Assembly: GCA_902774265.1 (NCBI GenBank)
Contig: CACYHR010000009.1
Coordinates: forward strand, 31,869 to 95,868
DNA length: 64,000 nucleotides
Direction: 5' to 3'
Origin: an uncultured Eubacteriales bacterium
GTDB lineage: Bacteria > Bacillota > Clostridia > Peptostreptococcales > Anaerovoracaceae
Below, one piece after another: positions 31,853 to 46,518 of the stretch (the first letter of the stretch is position 1; each line of letters opens with the position of its first letter). The translations under genes and the position numbers were made by a program. The notes below the pieces were generated by a model, which saw only the letters and a list, made by a program, of their open reading frames with translations, was not told the origin of the DNA and did not search any database.

Positions 31853-31929
31853 TGGTCGGGGTGGCAGGATTTGAACCCGCGGCCCACTGGTCCCAAACCA
31901 GTTGCGCTACCAAACTGCGCTACACCCCG
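31853..31929 (-). tRNA. tRNA-Pro(TGG), copy 1
   Basis: Anticodon loop TTTGGGA, acceptor CGGGGTG/CACCCCG, encoded CCA, 77 bases. Identical to the neighbour at 31958. Confidence 0.97.
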
Positions 31930-42309: not shown

Positions 42310-43074
42310 TCACTTAGCCTTATCTTCTATAAAGGCTTTTTTGAGTTCTAAAGATTTCATTTCCAGTGAATGATCAGGTTCGGCTCCGCTTATCTCCTTC
42401 CCCGATGCCGCTGCAGCGCATTTTATCATTTCCGCAGTAAGCCACGGGTTACCGACAAGCAGAGGTCCTGTCAGGTTCGTAAATACCGAATTGCGGTAAA
42501 CCAACCCCTCCAGGCCGTCAGATCCGTTGTTTCCATGTCCGTATCTGACCTTCCCGAGGCTGCTGAATCCGTCCTGCCTGTCCGTAAATACATCCATCAT
42601 CTGTATCTGATTTCCGAGCAGTTCCATTTCCCTGCCGTTATATACGGCATCCACAAGCTCATCATCGCCGTATACATACTCTCTTTCAAGCGCTTCTGCC
42701 GGTATGATGCCGAGCCCTTTTACGCTGCAGCTCCCATCAGCTGCCCGTCCGTCGCCGAACAGGCCGATCGATCTGCAGAACAGCCCGAAGGATGAGCCGA
42801 CCGCAAGCAGTACCCTGCCCGAATCCATGAATTCTCTGAGTCTTTCACGATAAGCAGATATCTCCGATATGACAGTCTCAAACGAAGGCAGTTCCCCCGG
42901 CCCGAAGAATATGATGTCATAATCCATCGGATCAAAGTATCCCGAACCGAGATCTATACGGTCCGTTTCCGCTTCGATGCCCATCGCTGCAGCCGTCCTC
43001 TCAAGAGCCATGACAGTACCCCTCTCGCCGTGCAGATAAAGGGTGTCAGGATACATCCATGCTATTCTGATCAT
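42310..43074 (-). CDS. GatD-like glutamine amidotransferase lacking the catalytic Cys and His
   Basis: 254 residues, aligned over its whole length with GatD, the glutaminase half of the lipid II isoglutaminyl synthase. Fold features are present: FFGPGELPSFE, GLGIIPAEALE, YGHGNNGSDGLEG, TGPLLVGNPWL. The nucleophile motif ICGGYQ of S. aureus GatD reads VGSSFG here (residues 92-97), so Cys is Gly; the LHGP motif reads LTGP (201-204), so His is Thr; the NHGGRT loop is also changed (GNQIQMM). Glutaminase activity is therefore unlikely. ATG overlaps the murT-like stop as ATGA; GGGAGG precedes it. Confidence 0.85.
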   Translation of the reverse strand: MIRIAWMYPDTLYLHGERGTVMALERTAAAMGIEAETDRIDLGSGYFDPMDYDIIFFGPGELPSFETVISEISAYRERLREFMDSGRVLLAVGSSFGLFCRSIGLFGDGRAADGSCSVKGLGIIPAEALEREYVYGDDELVDAVYNGREMELLGNQIQMMDVFTDRQDGFSSLGKVRYGHGNNGSDGLEGLVYRNSVFTNLTGPLLVGNPWLTAEMIKCAAAASGKEISGAEPDHSLEMKSLELKKAFIEDKAK

Positions 43075-44426
43075 AGTGCACCTCCCTTTTCGGCAAATGC
43101 CTTCATGCGTTCGAATCTGTGAAGCTCTATGGTGAGATACACATTGTCACATCCTGTCGATGTGATAGCCTTCAATATCTCCTCCTCATCGCTCGTAGGC
43201 AGTATCTCGACCTTTTCAGGATCGACGCCGCCGTAAATAAAGCTGTTCGCTGCATCATATGCTATAGTATCCGTAACAAAGATGTATTTCGATACATTCG
43301 AACCGATCAGACCGGAATAGTCGCAGTCAAATGCATAGAAAGAATTTATATAGTGCGGATCGAAATCGTTCACCGTACCAAATCCTATCACGACAACTTT
43401 TTCCTTCGGATCGTCCGCTATCATGTTGATGAAATTCTGCAGCGTTTCAGGGTTTTCCTGCTTAAATCTCATGTAATTGATATGCTGGCCGTTGTAATCT
43501 ATCGAATCGACTCTGCCGCCGACGTTTCTGAAATCACGGAGAGCTTCAGCGCATTCCTCTTCGCTCATGCCGGCGAGTTCCTTTGCAACAGCAACAGCCG
43601 ATGCGTAGTTGTACAGCATGTACGGCAATCTGTGATGCATACTGAAATCAGCATCTCCGATGCTGAATGTACCATTGTCGAAATCGACATTGCTGACCTT
43701 ATAATCAGGCTCAGAAGTCGCGTATCCGCAGTTGTCGCAGTGATAGCTTCCCAGTCCGTCATTATTATAGTAGTCGAAAACTATCCTGTGATGGCATTTC
43801 GGACACGGCATGGTCAGAAATGATTCATCTTTTGTGAAAGAAAGACTGTTTTTTTCGACACCGTAAAGCACGGTTTCACGTCCAAACGATGCAAACGACG
43901 CGGATCTTGGCTCGTCTGCATTCAGAAAGAGCCTGAAACCGAAATCTTTTATGACTTTTGAAATCTTTCTTGAGATATAGCTCGGATCGCCGTTTCTCTG
44001 CACCTGATCCTTTTGCAGATTGGTTATCAGCATGTTTGCAGCAGGCAGCTGCTCTCTTATCCTGTACAGATATCTCTCATCAGTCTCAAAAACGTAAAAA
44101 TCAGCATCCACCCGGCCTGCAGGTGTTGACGCCTTGATAAGTGCTGTAGCAATACCCGTTATAAGATTGGCACCCTCGATATTGGATACAACCTTATAGC
44201 CTTTGCTCCTCAGCAGATGATTGATCATATTATTGGTAGTGGATTTGCCGTTCGTCCCCGTTATAAACAGAACCTTTTCAGGATCTATGCCGCTGAAATG
44301 GCTGAGCATCTGAGGATCTATCTTCATCGCGGCTGCTCCCGCAAGATTCGTGCCTCTGCTCTTATCGATCAATCCGGCTGCAAATCCGGCAGCCTTTCCG
44401 GTTATCAATGCAGGTAAAAATCTCAT
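43071..44426 (-). CDS. MurT-like Mur ligase family protein
   Basis: ATP-dependent Mur ligase homologue; in S. aureus MurT with GatD amidates Glu of lipid II. 451 residues from the ATG at 44426 (AGG six bases upstream). MRFLPALITGKAAGFAAGL resembles the MurT membrane-near N-terminus; VLFITGTNGKSTTNNMI is the P-loop; a Cys4 zinc ribbon CPKC...CDNCGY sits at about 207-233; YNYASAVAVAKEL and RNVGGRVDSIDYNG are in the central domain. The usual DGRDxSWxWDxDF stretch reads YINSFYAFDCDY. So the ligase core is kept but the region facing the glutaminase is divergent. Confidence 0.87.
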   Translation of the reverse strand: MRFLPALITGKAAGFAAGLIDKSRGTNLAGAAAMKIDPQMLSHFSGIDPEKVLFITGTNGKSTTNNMINHLLRSKGYKVVSNIEGANLITGIATALIKASTPAGRVDADFYVFETDERYLYRIREQLPAANMLITNLQKDQVQRNGDPSYISRKISKVIKDFGFRLFLNADEPRSASFASFGRETVLYGVEKNSLSFTKDESFLTMPCPKCHHRIVFDYYNNDGLGSYHCDNCGYATSEPDYKVSNVDFDNGTFSIGDADFSMHHRLPYMLYNYASAVAVAKELAGMSEEECAEALRDFRNVGGRVDSIDYNGQHINYMRFKQENPETLQNFINMIADDPKEKVVVIGFGTVNDFDPHYINSFYAFDCDYSGLIGSNVSKYIFVTDTIAYDAANSFIYGGVDPEKVEILPTSDEEEILKAITSTGCDNVYLTIELHRFERMKAFAEKGGAL

Positions 44427-44505: not shown

Positions 44506-46518
44506 TTATTCTTCGTCCTTTGCCTCTTCCTCAGCAACAGGAGCCTCTTCTGCAGGTGCTTCTTCAGCAGGTGCAGGAGCAGCTTCTTCTTCAGGGAGAG
44601 TAGCCTTGATGCTCAGGCTGATCCTTCTCTTGTCCGGATCGATCTCCATGATCTTGACATTGACAGTCTCGCCAACCTTGAGTTCATCAAATACATTCTC
44701 AACTCTCTTGTTAGCGATCTCTGAAATATGAACGAGTCCGTCGAGTCCTGCTTCGAGCTCAACAAATGCGCCGTATTCCTTGATCTGTACTACTTTACCC
44801 TCAAGAACATCTCCTACCTGATACTTCTCACCTACGAGTGACCATGGTTCAGGCTGAGTCTGCTTGAGACCGAGTGAGATCTTGCCCTTCTCCTCATTGA
44901 GTGAAAGGATCTTGACGTTGATGATATCTCCGATATTGAGAACTTCCTGCGGGTGTTTGAGCTTGCCCCAGGAAATCTCCGAGATATGAAGAAGTCCGTC
45001 TACTCCGCCGATATCTACGAATGCGCCGTAGTCGGTGAATCTCATGACCTTACCTTCAACAACGTCGCCTACATTCAGGTTGCTCCAGATCTCGGAAACA
45101 GCTTTGCGCTTTTCTTCGACCATAACAGCCTTTCTGGAGAATACAGCTCTGTTACGCTTGGTATCAACTCTGATTACTCTTACATCGACTGTCTGTCCGA
45201 GGAACTCATCAGCGTTATCGACATATCTGTCAGACAGCTGGGACATAGGTACGAAGCCTGTGATCTCTTTATATGCTGCGATAACTCCGCCGTTAACGGC
45301 TCTTACCAGTTTAACAGTGATAACTTCCTTGTTCTCCATTGCCTCTTCGAGCTCTGTATAGTTCTCAACAGCAACGAGTCTCTTCTTGGAGAGGAGGATA
45401 CCACCCTCACCCTCATCAGACTTGATGACCTTAGCCTGGATATCATCGCCTACCTTGAAAAGATCTGTAAGCTTCTGTCCTTCTTCGAGGACCACTTCAT
45501 CTGCTCTCAGGATGCCGTCTTTTTTGCATCCCATGTTGACGATAACTGCATCATCCATTACCTGATCGATCTTTCCGTCAATAATATCTCCCGGCTTAGG
45601 TAAACGTAAAGATTTCTCAATGTCATCCATGAAATCCATCATTGGATTCTGTTCCATATTTGTAGTGACATTTTCGCTCATGCTAGAAATAACCTCCTTA
45701 ATAATCCACTCGGGCGTGGACGCGCCCGCTATGCATCCTATTGTATTATATTTTGACGCTTCATTCAACAATAAATTGTATGCATTCTCAATAAAAATTG
45801 AATTATTGCAGATTTTTTTGGCTATTTCGTAAAGTTTGCACGAATTTGAACTATGTTTGTCACCTATAACCACCATCATATCGACTTTTGAGGCCAGTTC
45901 GGCACAGCTTTCCTGGCGAAGCCGCGTCGCATTGCATATGGTGTTATGTATATCATATTTTACGCCTTTATCATCAAATACATCCAATATTGACTGAAGC
46001 AGTCCGGCCTTTATCGTAGTCTGGCAGACTATAAGAGGCCTGAAATCTTTCAGTTCCTCAGCCGCCTCTGCGGCTTCTTCCGAACTACCGATTACAATCG
46101 CTTCATAACCGCACCATCCGTTTGTCGCTCTGACCTCCTGATGGTTTCTGTCGCCTATAAGCACGACTTTCTGTGATTTCCCGTGAGCCTCGGCTACAAG
46201 CTCATGTATCTTTTTTACGAAAACACATGTAGTATCGATCAGCCTGATACCTCTCCTCTGCGCCTCGTCATAGAATTCCTTTGGCTCGCCATGAGATCTC
46301 ACTATCACCGTATCGCCCGGCTGTGCCTCGTTCAGTGACTCTATCATTCCGACGCCTTTTTCCGCCAGTCTGTCCACAACAGCACTGTTATGGATCAGAT
46401 GACCGCAGGTATACAGTTTACCGACGCGGTCCTCCCTGTCCGCCTCCGAAAACGCCAGATTGATAGCTCTGTCTACACCGAAACAAAAACCGGAATGCTT
46501 AGCCCTGATTATTTCCAC
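44506..46518 (-). CDS. ispH-rpsA: IspH-S1 fusion: HMBPP reductase joined to ribosomal protein S1
   Basis: 670 residues. Residues 1-279 are IspH, the [4Fe-4S] enzyme ending the MEP isoprenoid pathway, with cluster cysteines C12 (SGFCFGV), C98 (DTTC) and C195 (NTICNAT). From 280 on come four S1 RNA-binding domains (for example VVEGKVMRFTDYGAFVDIGG) and an Ala/Glu/Pro-rich tail. The fusion is known in Clostridia. Unusually, a full AAGGAGG (45693-45699) lies 11 bases before the in-frame ATG at 45681 (MSENV), so S1 may also be made alone as 391 residues. A Fe-S scaffold-like gene pair lies directly upstream. Confidence 0.96.
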   Translation of the reverse strand: MEIIRAKHSGFCFGVDRAINLAFSEADREDRVGKLYTCGHLIHNSAVVDRLAEKGVGMIESLNEAQPGDTVIVRSHGEPKEFYDEAQRRGIRLIDTTCVFVKKIHELVAEAHGKSQKVVLIGDRNHQEVRATNGWCGYEAIVIGSSEEAAEAAEELKDFRPLIVCQTTIKAGLLQSILDVFDDKGVKYDIHNTICNATRLRQESCAELASKVDMMVVIGDKHSSNSCKLYEIAKKICNNSIFIENAYNLLLNEASKYNTIGCIAGASTPEWIIKEVISSMSENVTTNMEQNPMMDFMDDIEKSLRLPKPGDIIDGKIDQVMDDAVIVNMGCKKDGILRADEVVLEEGQKLTDLFKVGDDIQAKVIKSDEGEGGILLSKKRLVAVENYTELEEAMENKEVITVKLVRAVNGGVIAAYKEITGFVPMSQLSDRYVDNADEFLGQTVDVRVIRVDTKRNRAVFSRKAVMVEEKRKAVSEIWSNLNVGDVVEGKVMRFTDYGAFVDIGGVDGLLHISEISWGKLKHPQEVLNIGDIINVKILSLNEEKGKISLGLKQTQPEPWSLVGEKYQVGDVLEGKVVQIKEYGAFVELEAGLDGLVHISEIANKRVENVFDELKVGETVNVKIMEIDPDKRRISLSIKATLPEEEAAPAPAEEAPAEEAPVAEEEAKDEE
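45681..45699 (-). promoter_or_regulatory. Internal ribosome-binding site at the IspH/S1 junction
   Basis: AAGGAGG (45693-45699) ahead of the in-frame ATG at 45679-45681, spacing 11, exactly at the domain boundary. The box encodes Lys-Glu-Val, so chance is possible. Confidence 0.55.

Follow-up and report, generated by a model that had tools for sequence, protein, structure and literature searches.

A clade of MurT/GatD-type pairs in Clostridia has lost its glutaminase residues and, in one subfamily, carries a remade pocket

Results

We analysed a stretch of 64,000 nucleotides (hereafter the window) from an uncultured Eubacteriales bacterium (GTDB lineage Bacteria; Bacillota; Clostridia; Peptostreptococcales; Anaerovoracaceae), positions 31,869 to 95,868 of contig CACYHR010000009.1 in GenBank assembly GCA_902774265.1, which contains a MurT/GatD-type gene pair on its minus strand. 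The murT-like gene (43071–44426, 451 amino acids) encodes a Mur_ligase_M domain, a zinc ribbon and a MurT_C domain. It is directly followed, with a 4-base overlap, by a gatD-like gene (42310–43074, 254 amino acids) that encodes a glutamine amidotransferase (GATase) fold without catalytic residues, a pseudo-GatD of what we term subfamily A. Both open reading frames are present at these coordinates. Solved GatD chains lead the matches of the GatD-like protein among PDB sequences (phmmer E values of 4e-15 to 1e-10), and MurT chains lead those of the MurT-like protein (7e-43 against Staphylococcus aureus MurT). The latter carries PF08245 (Mur_ligase_M, 39.3 bits) and PF08353 (MurT_C, 37.5 bits) above the Pfam cut-offs, and the former a GATase_3 match of 21.1 bits, under the 27-bit cut-off. 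Both proteins fall far below the cut-offs of the NCBIfam equivalogs NF045635/NF045636 (MurT 130.1 of 800 bits, GatD 74.6 of 400 bits), although the GatD cut-off is reached by none of 291 class-wide genomes, so that missing it alone says little. In AlphaFold2 models, both built from 31-row alignments, the GatD-like protein adopts the GatD fold, with a mean predicted local distance difference test score (pLDDT) of 93 and a template modelling (TM) score of 0.86 to S. aureus GatD (6gs2_A). The MurT-like model (mean pLDDT 87) has solved MurT chains as its best thirteen PDB matches, at TM scores of 0.50–0.59 by query length and root-mean-square deviations of 6.5–9.6, values that probably reflect a different placement of domains in the model. 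The phmmer matches and predicted fold thus bear out the overall GatD character described in the original prediction for this locus.

The residues that define a glutaminase are gone. Canonical positions, numbered as in S. aureus GatD and MurT, were defined by the S. aureus and Streptococcus pneumoniae structures, and all codons below lie on the minus strand. The alignment places Gly93 (42796–42798) at the catalytic Cys94, ICGGYQ having become VGSSFG, and Thr202 (42469–42471) at the catalytic His189, LHGP having become LTGP; the Cys-bearing nucleophile elbow of class I glutamine amidotransferases is absent, VGSSF standing in place of ICGGY. Val134 (42673–42675) occupies the position of the glutamine-binding Arg128 and His15 (43030–43032) that of Tyr17, which caps the active site, and the motif GNQIQM (42598–42615; column identities 0.61–1.0 in 31 proteins of subfamilies A and A', defined below) replaces the canonical GFENHxG. 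On the MurT side, Asn361 (43344–43346) stands where canonical MurT has Asp349, proposed as the third residue of the triad, DGRDTSW having become HYINSFY. The loop QKDQVQRNGD (43986–44015) replaces RDQxDRxGE, which is turned towards GatD in the complex from S. pneumoniae (PMC6085368), and Arg118 (44073–44075) gives DER where canonical proteins read DEA, DEG or DEL. Among the 31 A/A' proteins the site has no substitute Cys or His: Cys100, Cys116 and Cys219 are unconserved, and His15, kept in 27 of the 31, has no Cys partner. The MurT ligase motifs are intact, namely the P-loop GTNGKST (44238–44258), the Cys4 zinc ribbon (CPKC ... CDNC, 43728–43805), GAN, E-x-DE, the Asn of the TN motif and a KNP-type loop, and the ATP/Mg2+ residues G57, T58, G60, K61, E114, D116, E117, R305 and N325 are invariant in the 31-row A/A' alignment. 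Alignment and motifs therefore agree with the original prediction, which had read the loss of the Cys motif and of the LHGP His, the altered DGRDxSW region and the retained P-loop and zinc ribbon. It had also considered that a Cys and a His might lie elsewhere in the site, which the 31 proteins argue against, or that a sequencing error might be responsible, which is excluded because the changes recur in independent genomes.

Published mutants of the canonical enzyme fit the losses read in the window. In S. aureus, GatD C94G abolishes glutamine-dependent amidation (PMC3266927), GatD R128A, C94A and H189A are inactive in glutamine deamidation (PMC5871853), and C94S and D349N were made by authors who consider both residues likely to be relevant for activity (PMC6113224). 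The same structural study proposes MurT Asp349 as the third triad residue, whereas the S. pneumoniae study assigns this role to an acidic residue of GatD itself (PMC6085368), a position that is still Glu in the window (LHGERG).

To place the pair we searched 148 relatives and 291 class-wide genomes, and the fetched loci were then read. Six of the 101 pairs originally obtained were left out of the tree and residue counts: two from the same places as others (L020 and L030, identical to L069 and L077), one with GatD cut by a contig end (L024), and three with MurT shorter than 400 amino acids (L053, L055 and L099, whose Cys/His positions read G/L, G/I and S/H). The remaining 95 non-duplicate pairs with a full MurT and the S. 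aureus reference gave 96 rows. Rows in which no MurT preceded GatD within the stretch fetched were excluded, some Cys-less (L015, L070 and the second copy of L050) and others with Cys and His (L076, L116 and L120). A CobQ-like protein (L080) was likewise excluded, as was a GATase_3 fragment of L037 that is cut at an edge and has both Cys and His; its C-terminal extension suggests that it is also CobQ-like. Four loci (L001, L002, L004 and L005) were removed as duplicates from the S. aureus-referenced alignment of GatD.

Cys94 is present in 17 of the 96 rows, S. aureus included, and missing in 79 (72 Gly, 6 Ser, 1 Ala), a proportion that does not represent natural frequency since the 40 class-wide stretches were picked by score from 175 matching genomes with low scores preferred. 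All 17 Cys rows keep MurT Asp349 and 15 keep His189, whereas His189 is missing from 78 of the 79 Cys-less rows and Asp349 from 66. Every one of the 36 A/A' rows lacks Cys, His, Asp349 and Arg128 and carries the new Arg of DER; their MurT 349 column reads Asn in 34 and Val in two. The original prediction had suggested placing the pair among GatD/MurT sets by alignment and tree. In a maximum-likelihood tree rooted on S. aureus, with the catalytic-motif columns removed (a quick search, with support from the Shimodaira–Hasegawa-like approximate likelihood ratio test, SH-aLRT, and no bootstrap), 75 Cys-less pairs form one clade (SH-aLRT 98), comprising subfamilies A (31 rows) and A' (5 rows) at SH-aLRT 100, B (16 rows) at 97 and C (23 rows) at 100. 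At least three changes of Cys state are needed on this tree, the two outside the clade being independent losses, one in family f55 and one in L098. The window pair falls in A, beside a pair of Mogibacterium sp. RGIG2443 (L034). Subfamily A is spread over five families of Clostridia, with Emergencia, Hornefia and Eubacterium pyruvativorans among its named members, and occurs in four genomes of family f64, one of which (G234) is very probably Acetobacterium woodii.

One genus (g134, family f53) has Cys-less B pairs in three of the genomes read (L085–L087) and catalytic pairs in two (L088, L089), and so lends itself to a comparison of wall chemistry. In L090–L092, Cys and His were lost independently while MurT and the FENH motif are still canonical, and a FemAB gene overlaps downstream; these pairs possibly represent an early stage of the same change.

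The former glutaminase site is more conserved than the rest of the protein. Across the 31 A/A' proteins, the 38 columns of the site have a mean identity of 0.76 against 0.49 elsewhere, and none of 20,000 random block sets was as conserved, although some of the 38 columns (for example GP after His189) are conserved in canonical GatD too. Motifs new to subfamily A, each with some exceptions, are G-[NS]-QIQM, E-x3-V-[YH]-G-[DN] and a changed FTN-x-x-GP in GatD, and [HY]Y-x-N-[ST]-FY, QKDQ-x-QRNG-[DE] and DER in MurT. Pairwise ratios of nonsynonymous to synonymous substitution (dN/dS) are 0.07–0.17 for GatD in four of five comparisons, the fifth being saturated, and 0.04–0.07 for MurT in all five. 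The Cys-less pair is thus neither a sequencing error nor a product of decay, and its pocket has been remade, not relaxed.

We found no catalytic pair that could stand in for the Cys-less one, a second copy that the original prediction had proposed to look for. A second MurT_C match was not found in the window's own genome, which is 90.8% complete, and the only other GatD-family match there, a 512-residue protein with CbiA and GATase_3 domains, is CobQ-like and was rejected as a GatD. Canonical GatD was not detected in the A genomes, many of which are drafts (the least complete at 76%): none has a GatD-family match above 98 bits, where fetched pairs with Cys and His score at least 143 bits and the class-wide listing reaches down to about 53 bits.

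Genes lying at most 300 bases from the pair, on either side, were counted as neighbours, leaving out two rows with fewer than 700 bases downstream. Four families recur. An Orr-like racemase (PF01168) lies directly downstream of 3 of 31 A pairs (L023, L074 and L107) and scores 315–411 bits against NCBIfam racem_Orr, under the cut-off of 480. An ATP-grasp protein lies downstream of all five tandem A' pairs. A protein assigned to ATPgrasp_ST (PF14397, sugar-transfer-associated ATP-grasp), through one scanned representative from L077, adjoins 13 of 22 pairs in subfamily C, in two cases from the opposite strand, and 1 of 15 in subfamily B (L046, L047, L050–L052, L056, L057, L059, L061, L066–L068, L077 and L115); it is a candidate for a second step in one and the same wall modification. 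FemAB (PF02388) lies downstream of three of the four Cys-less pairs that keep the FENH motif, a separate lineage. Members of these families make, join or transfer amino acids, and FemAB proteins build wall cross-bridges. Taken together they neighbour 25 of 77 Cys-less pairs against 0 of 14 canonical pairs (Fisher p 0.009, relatedness ignored), an enrichment that is suggestive. The tandem loci (L041–L045) have the same layout in all five cases: murT-gatD of type A and murT'-gatD' of type A', both Cys-less, then a gene for an ATP-grasp ligase-like protein and one of the Na+/H+ antiporter family.

Two genes next to the window pair were set aside as partners. The HAD phosphatase, which the original prediction had tentatively included in the system, is found at only 1 of 34 other subfamily-A loci, that of the closest relative (L034); two of these loci are the same place and many have only about 1.5 kb of flank. 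Upstream of murT, at 44506–46518, lies IspH fused to ribosomal protein S1 domains, a known fusion (NCBIfam PRK00087, above cut-off). Among the same 34 loci it is beside the pair only in L034 and L041–L045, and is taken as local synteny.

An Orr-like gene somewhere in the genome accompanies subfamily A almost without exception (26 of 27 genomes, the one miss, G038, being 76% complete; the named A-type loci L035–L040 and the fragments G001 and G039 stand outside this count). Elsewhere it occurs in 3 of 18 genomes classed as canonical (G150, G152, G155 and G171 by score alone), 2 of 10 with B, 8 of 8 with C and 7 of 7 members of the window's family without a MurT match, the C and no-MurT genomes all coming from that family. 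The gene is uninformative inside the window's family, where it is near-universal; outside it, the count is 7 of 7 A genomes (families f29, f64, f81 and f85) against 0 of 14 taken as canonical (families other than f1 and f2). Class-wide, 44 of 291 genomes have the gene, among them every one of the 8 known A genomes and 4 of 110 with a GatD match above 158 bits, the 110 having been counted by hand from the list and classed by score without residue-level reading. Ornithine racemase as stand-alone proof is ruled out, as it occurs in nearly every genome tested from the window's family, irrespective of MurT, and in some canonical genomes elsewhere. Its own neighbours, putatively lysS and greA or leuS, give no hint of a role in the wall.

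Acetobacterium and Eubacterium limosum reportedly have group B walls, in which a D-diamino acid is carried on the alpha-carboxyl of D-glutamate (D-Glu); this chemistry is said to go back to Kandler and Schoberth (1979) and Schleifer and Kandler (1972), the latter reportedly describing group B and other alpha-substituted peptidoglycans in chemical terms. Two genomic markers of wall type were tried and rejected: for DapF, neither the window genome nor G234 gave a match and other A genomes have the gene, and the MurE motif reads DNPA in G234, DNPR in G198 and neither of the usual forms in the copy read from the window genome. That genome has two MurE-like ligases (L142 and L147, G000:C60 and C20), the first reading EEDYGEED where DNPR or DNPA is usual. 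The table of a 2024 review includes B2alpha beside A types among the wall types of Eubacterium, and 2-4 cross-linking is mentioned (PMC11382707). For the remaining carriers of subfamily A no wall type was found.

Discussion

As far as sequences can show, a MurT/GatD-type pair in Clostridia has lost its glutaminase apparatus while its ATP and Mg2+ motifs remained intact, the pocket and the MurT loop facing it were remodelled together, and the result has been held by purifying selection in one old clade. The original prediction that a conserved pair without glutaminase residues forms a distinct system therefore holds, in that the pair is distinct from isoglutaminyl synthase. Among the three fates it had offered, we favour another ligation, disfavour the loss of all amidation and keep the use of free ammonia as an unlikely rival. 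We propose, with a probability of roughly 0.5, that the pair is an ATP-dependent ligase that links the alpha-carboxyl of D-Glu to an amino acid, possibly D-ornithine or D-lysine, the arrangement found in group B peptidoglycan. The heterodimer would combine an intact ligase half with a glutaminase half turned into a non-hydrolysing partner. MurT would still activate the D-iso-glutamate of a lipid-linked wall precursor by forming an acyl phosphate at its alpha-carboxyl. An intact amino acid would replace ammonia as the nucleophile, and either the remade GatD pocket or the new Arg and loop of MurT would hold it in place. In subfamily A the likeliest substrate would be D-ornithine or D-lysine, a D-diamino acid whose alpha-linkage would begin the group B cross-bridge, and other subfamilies would take other amino acids. 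More tentatively, and with greater doubt than for the ligase itself, subfamily A may be the enzyme that builds the alpha-linked group B (B2) cross-bridge with the former glutaminase subunit as a docking pocket for the D-diamino acid, B and C doing likewise for other amino acids.

Several observations limit or weigh against this proposal. Co-loss is complete only in subfamily A/A', since L098 is Cys-less and keeps His, and 13 of 79 Cys-less rows keep Asp at 349; the Arg or Lys that binds glutamine is mostly retained in B and C. Of 47 genomes in the window's genus, 26 gave a MurT_C match, the figure for the more complete ones being 10 of 18; the murT-gatD pair is thus optional in this genus, which is odd for an enzyme that defines cross-links. 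The neighbour families were chosen post hoc as recurrent, so that 0 of 14 is no independent test, and 28 of 31 A loci have none of the four. A FemAB gene also lies 341 bases from a pair with Cys and with Asp for His (L096), and a racemase 1333 bases from a canonical pair (L075). High-scoring canonical genomes with an Orr-like gene exist (G240, G264, G320 and G350), and the gene is present nearly throughout the window's family with or without a MurT match; the racemase link is in part shared ancestry and in part other metabolism. The wall markers, diaminopimelate epimerase and the MurE motif, are mixed.

Loss of Cys alone implies no new nucleophile, because S. aureus MurT with GatD C94G, the substitution seen here, still amidates with NH3 at pH 8.5 (PMC3266927), and GatD is still required for this NH3-dependent reaction (PMC3266927; PMC6085368). 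The main rival to an amino-acid ligase, one that we consider unlikely, is therefore a pair that still amidates D-Glu using free ammonia, with GatD kept as a structural partner. The intact ligase motifs of MurT suit it, as do gut and rumen habitats, which are generally ammonia-rich. However, the C94G assay gave no activity with NH3 or NH4Cl at pH 7.5 (PMC3266927, Table 2), and a disused pocket should relax, whereas the A pocket exceeds the remaining protein in conservation and has acquired fixed motifs of its own. Tandem A and A' pairs in five genomes suggest two different jobs, and ammonia leaves the neighbouring amino-acid enzymes unexplained. Less probable again is a ligase that works not on D-Glu but on another acceptor, such as a different carboxyl in the wall precursor or some other lipid-linked molecule. 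The changes in MurT (DER and loop 135–143) are as fixed as those in GatD, and some genomes have two different Cys-less pairs, both of which such an acceptor would accommodate, but subfamily A retains the acceptor-binding Gly-Ala-Asn and the acidic pair thought to bind Mg2+ and the acceptor. A catalytically idle pair with a structural or regulatory role in precursor synthesis, although compatible with the loss of all glutaminase residues and with patchy presence in the genus, is very improbable given ATP/Mg2+ residues that are invariant in the A/A' alignment and the low dN/dS of MurT; purifying selection and the conserved, remade pocket likewise disfavour the earlier suggestion that the pair amidates nothing.

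The amino-acid ligase that we propose can be set against several known systems. It shares with the MurT/GatD isoglutaminyl synthases of S. aureus (6gs2, 6h5e), S. pneumoniae (6fqb) and S. pyogenes (9sq9) the murT-gatD order, the GatD fold, the middle and C-terminal domains of MurT, the P-loop, the zinc ribbon, the acceptor motif GAN and the KNP loop, and differs from them in replacing GatD Cys94, His189, Arg128 and Tyr17 together with MurT Asp349, loop 135–143 and the residue after Asp-Glu. In ammonia-dependent amidotransferase relatives of the carbamoyl phosphate synthetase I type, the glutaminase domain was also retained after Cys was lost; unlike these, the window pair shows new motifs that became fixed in the pocket, and its synthetase side was altered in step. 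MurC-F and the pseudomurein ligase pMurC give weaker sequence and fold matches to the window MurT, with which they have an acyl-phosphate ligase core in common, but the window pair is without their uridine diphosphate-binding N-terminal Mur domain (by Pfam) and has a GatD-type partner and a zinc ribbon. The MurT-like proteins of pseudomurein archaea are similar in being MurT relatives that work, if at all, without a glutaminase; GatD is absent there, as far as the account in PMC11915815 covers them, whereas here the GatD-type partner was kept and remade. MurT in Erysipelotrichales is discussed in a paper on a Bulleidia genome (PMC12786226). Full-text searches of open-licence literature found no report of a Cys-less MurT/GatD clade, and the literature found by searches, including that on Acetobacterium and type B organisms, does not name the alpha-carboxyl ligase of the group B wall.

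MurT/GatD has been studied as an antibacterial target, and finding it in a genome is easily taken to mean that D-Glu is amidated. In many Clostridia, however, the annotated glutaminase lacks catalytic residues, and the reading of glutamine-dependent amidation therefore fails. The clade also offers a clean natural case in which a catalytic triad split over two proteins was lost and rebuilt together. If the clade does ligate amino acids, it would open a genetic route to peptidoglycans of group B and others that are alpha-substituted, and if subfamily A is the group B ligase, an ammonia-channelling amidotransferase would have been converted into an amino-acid ligase.

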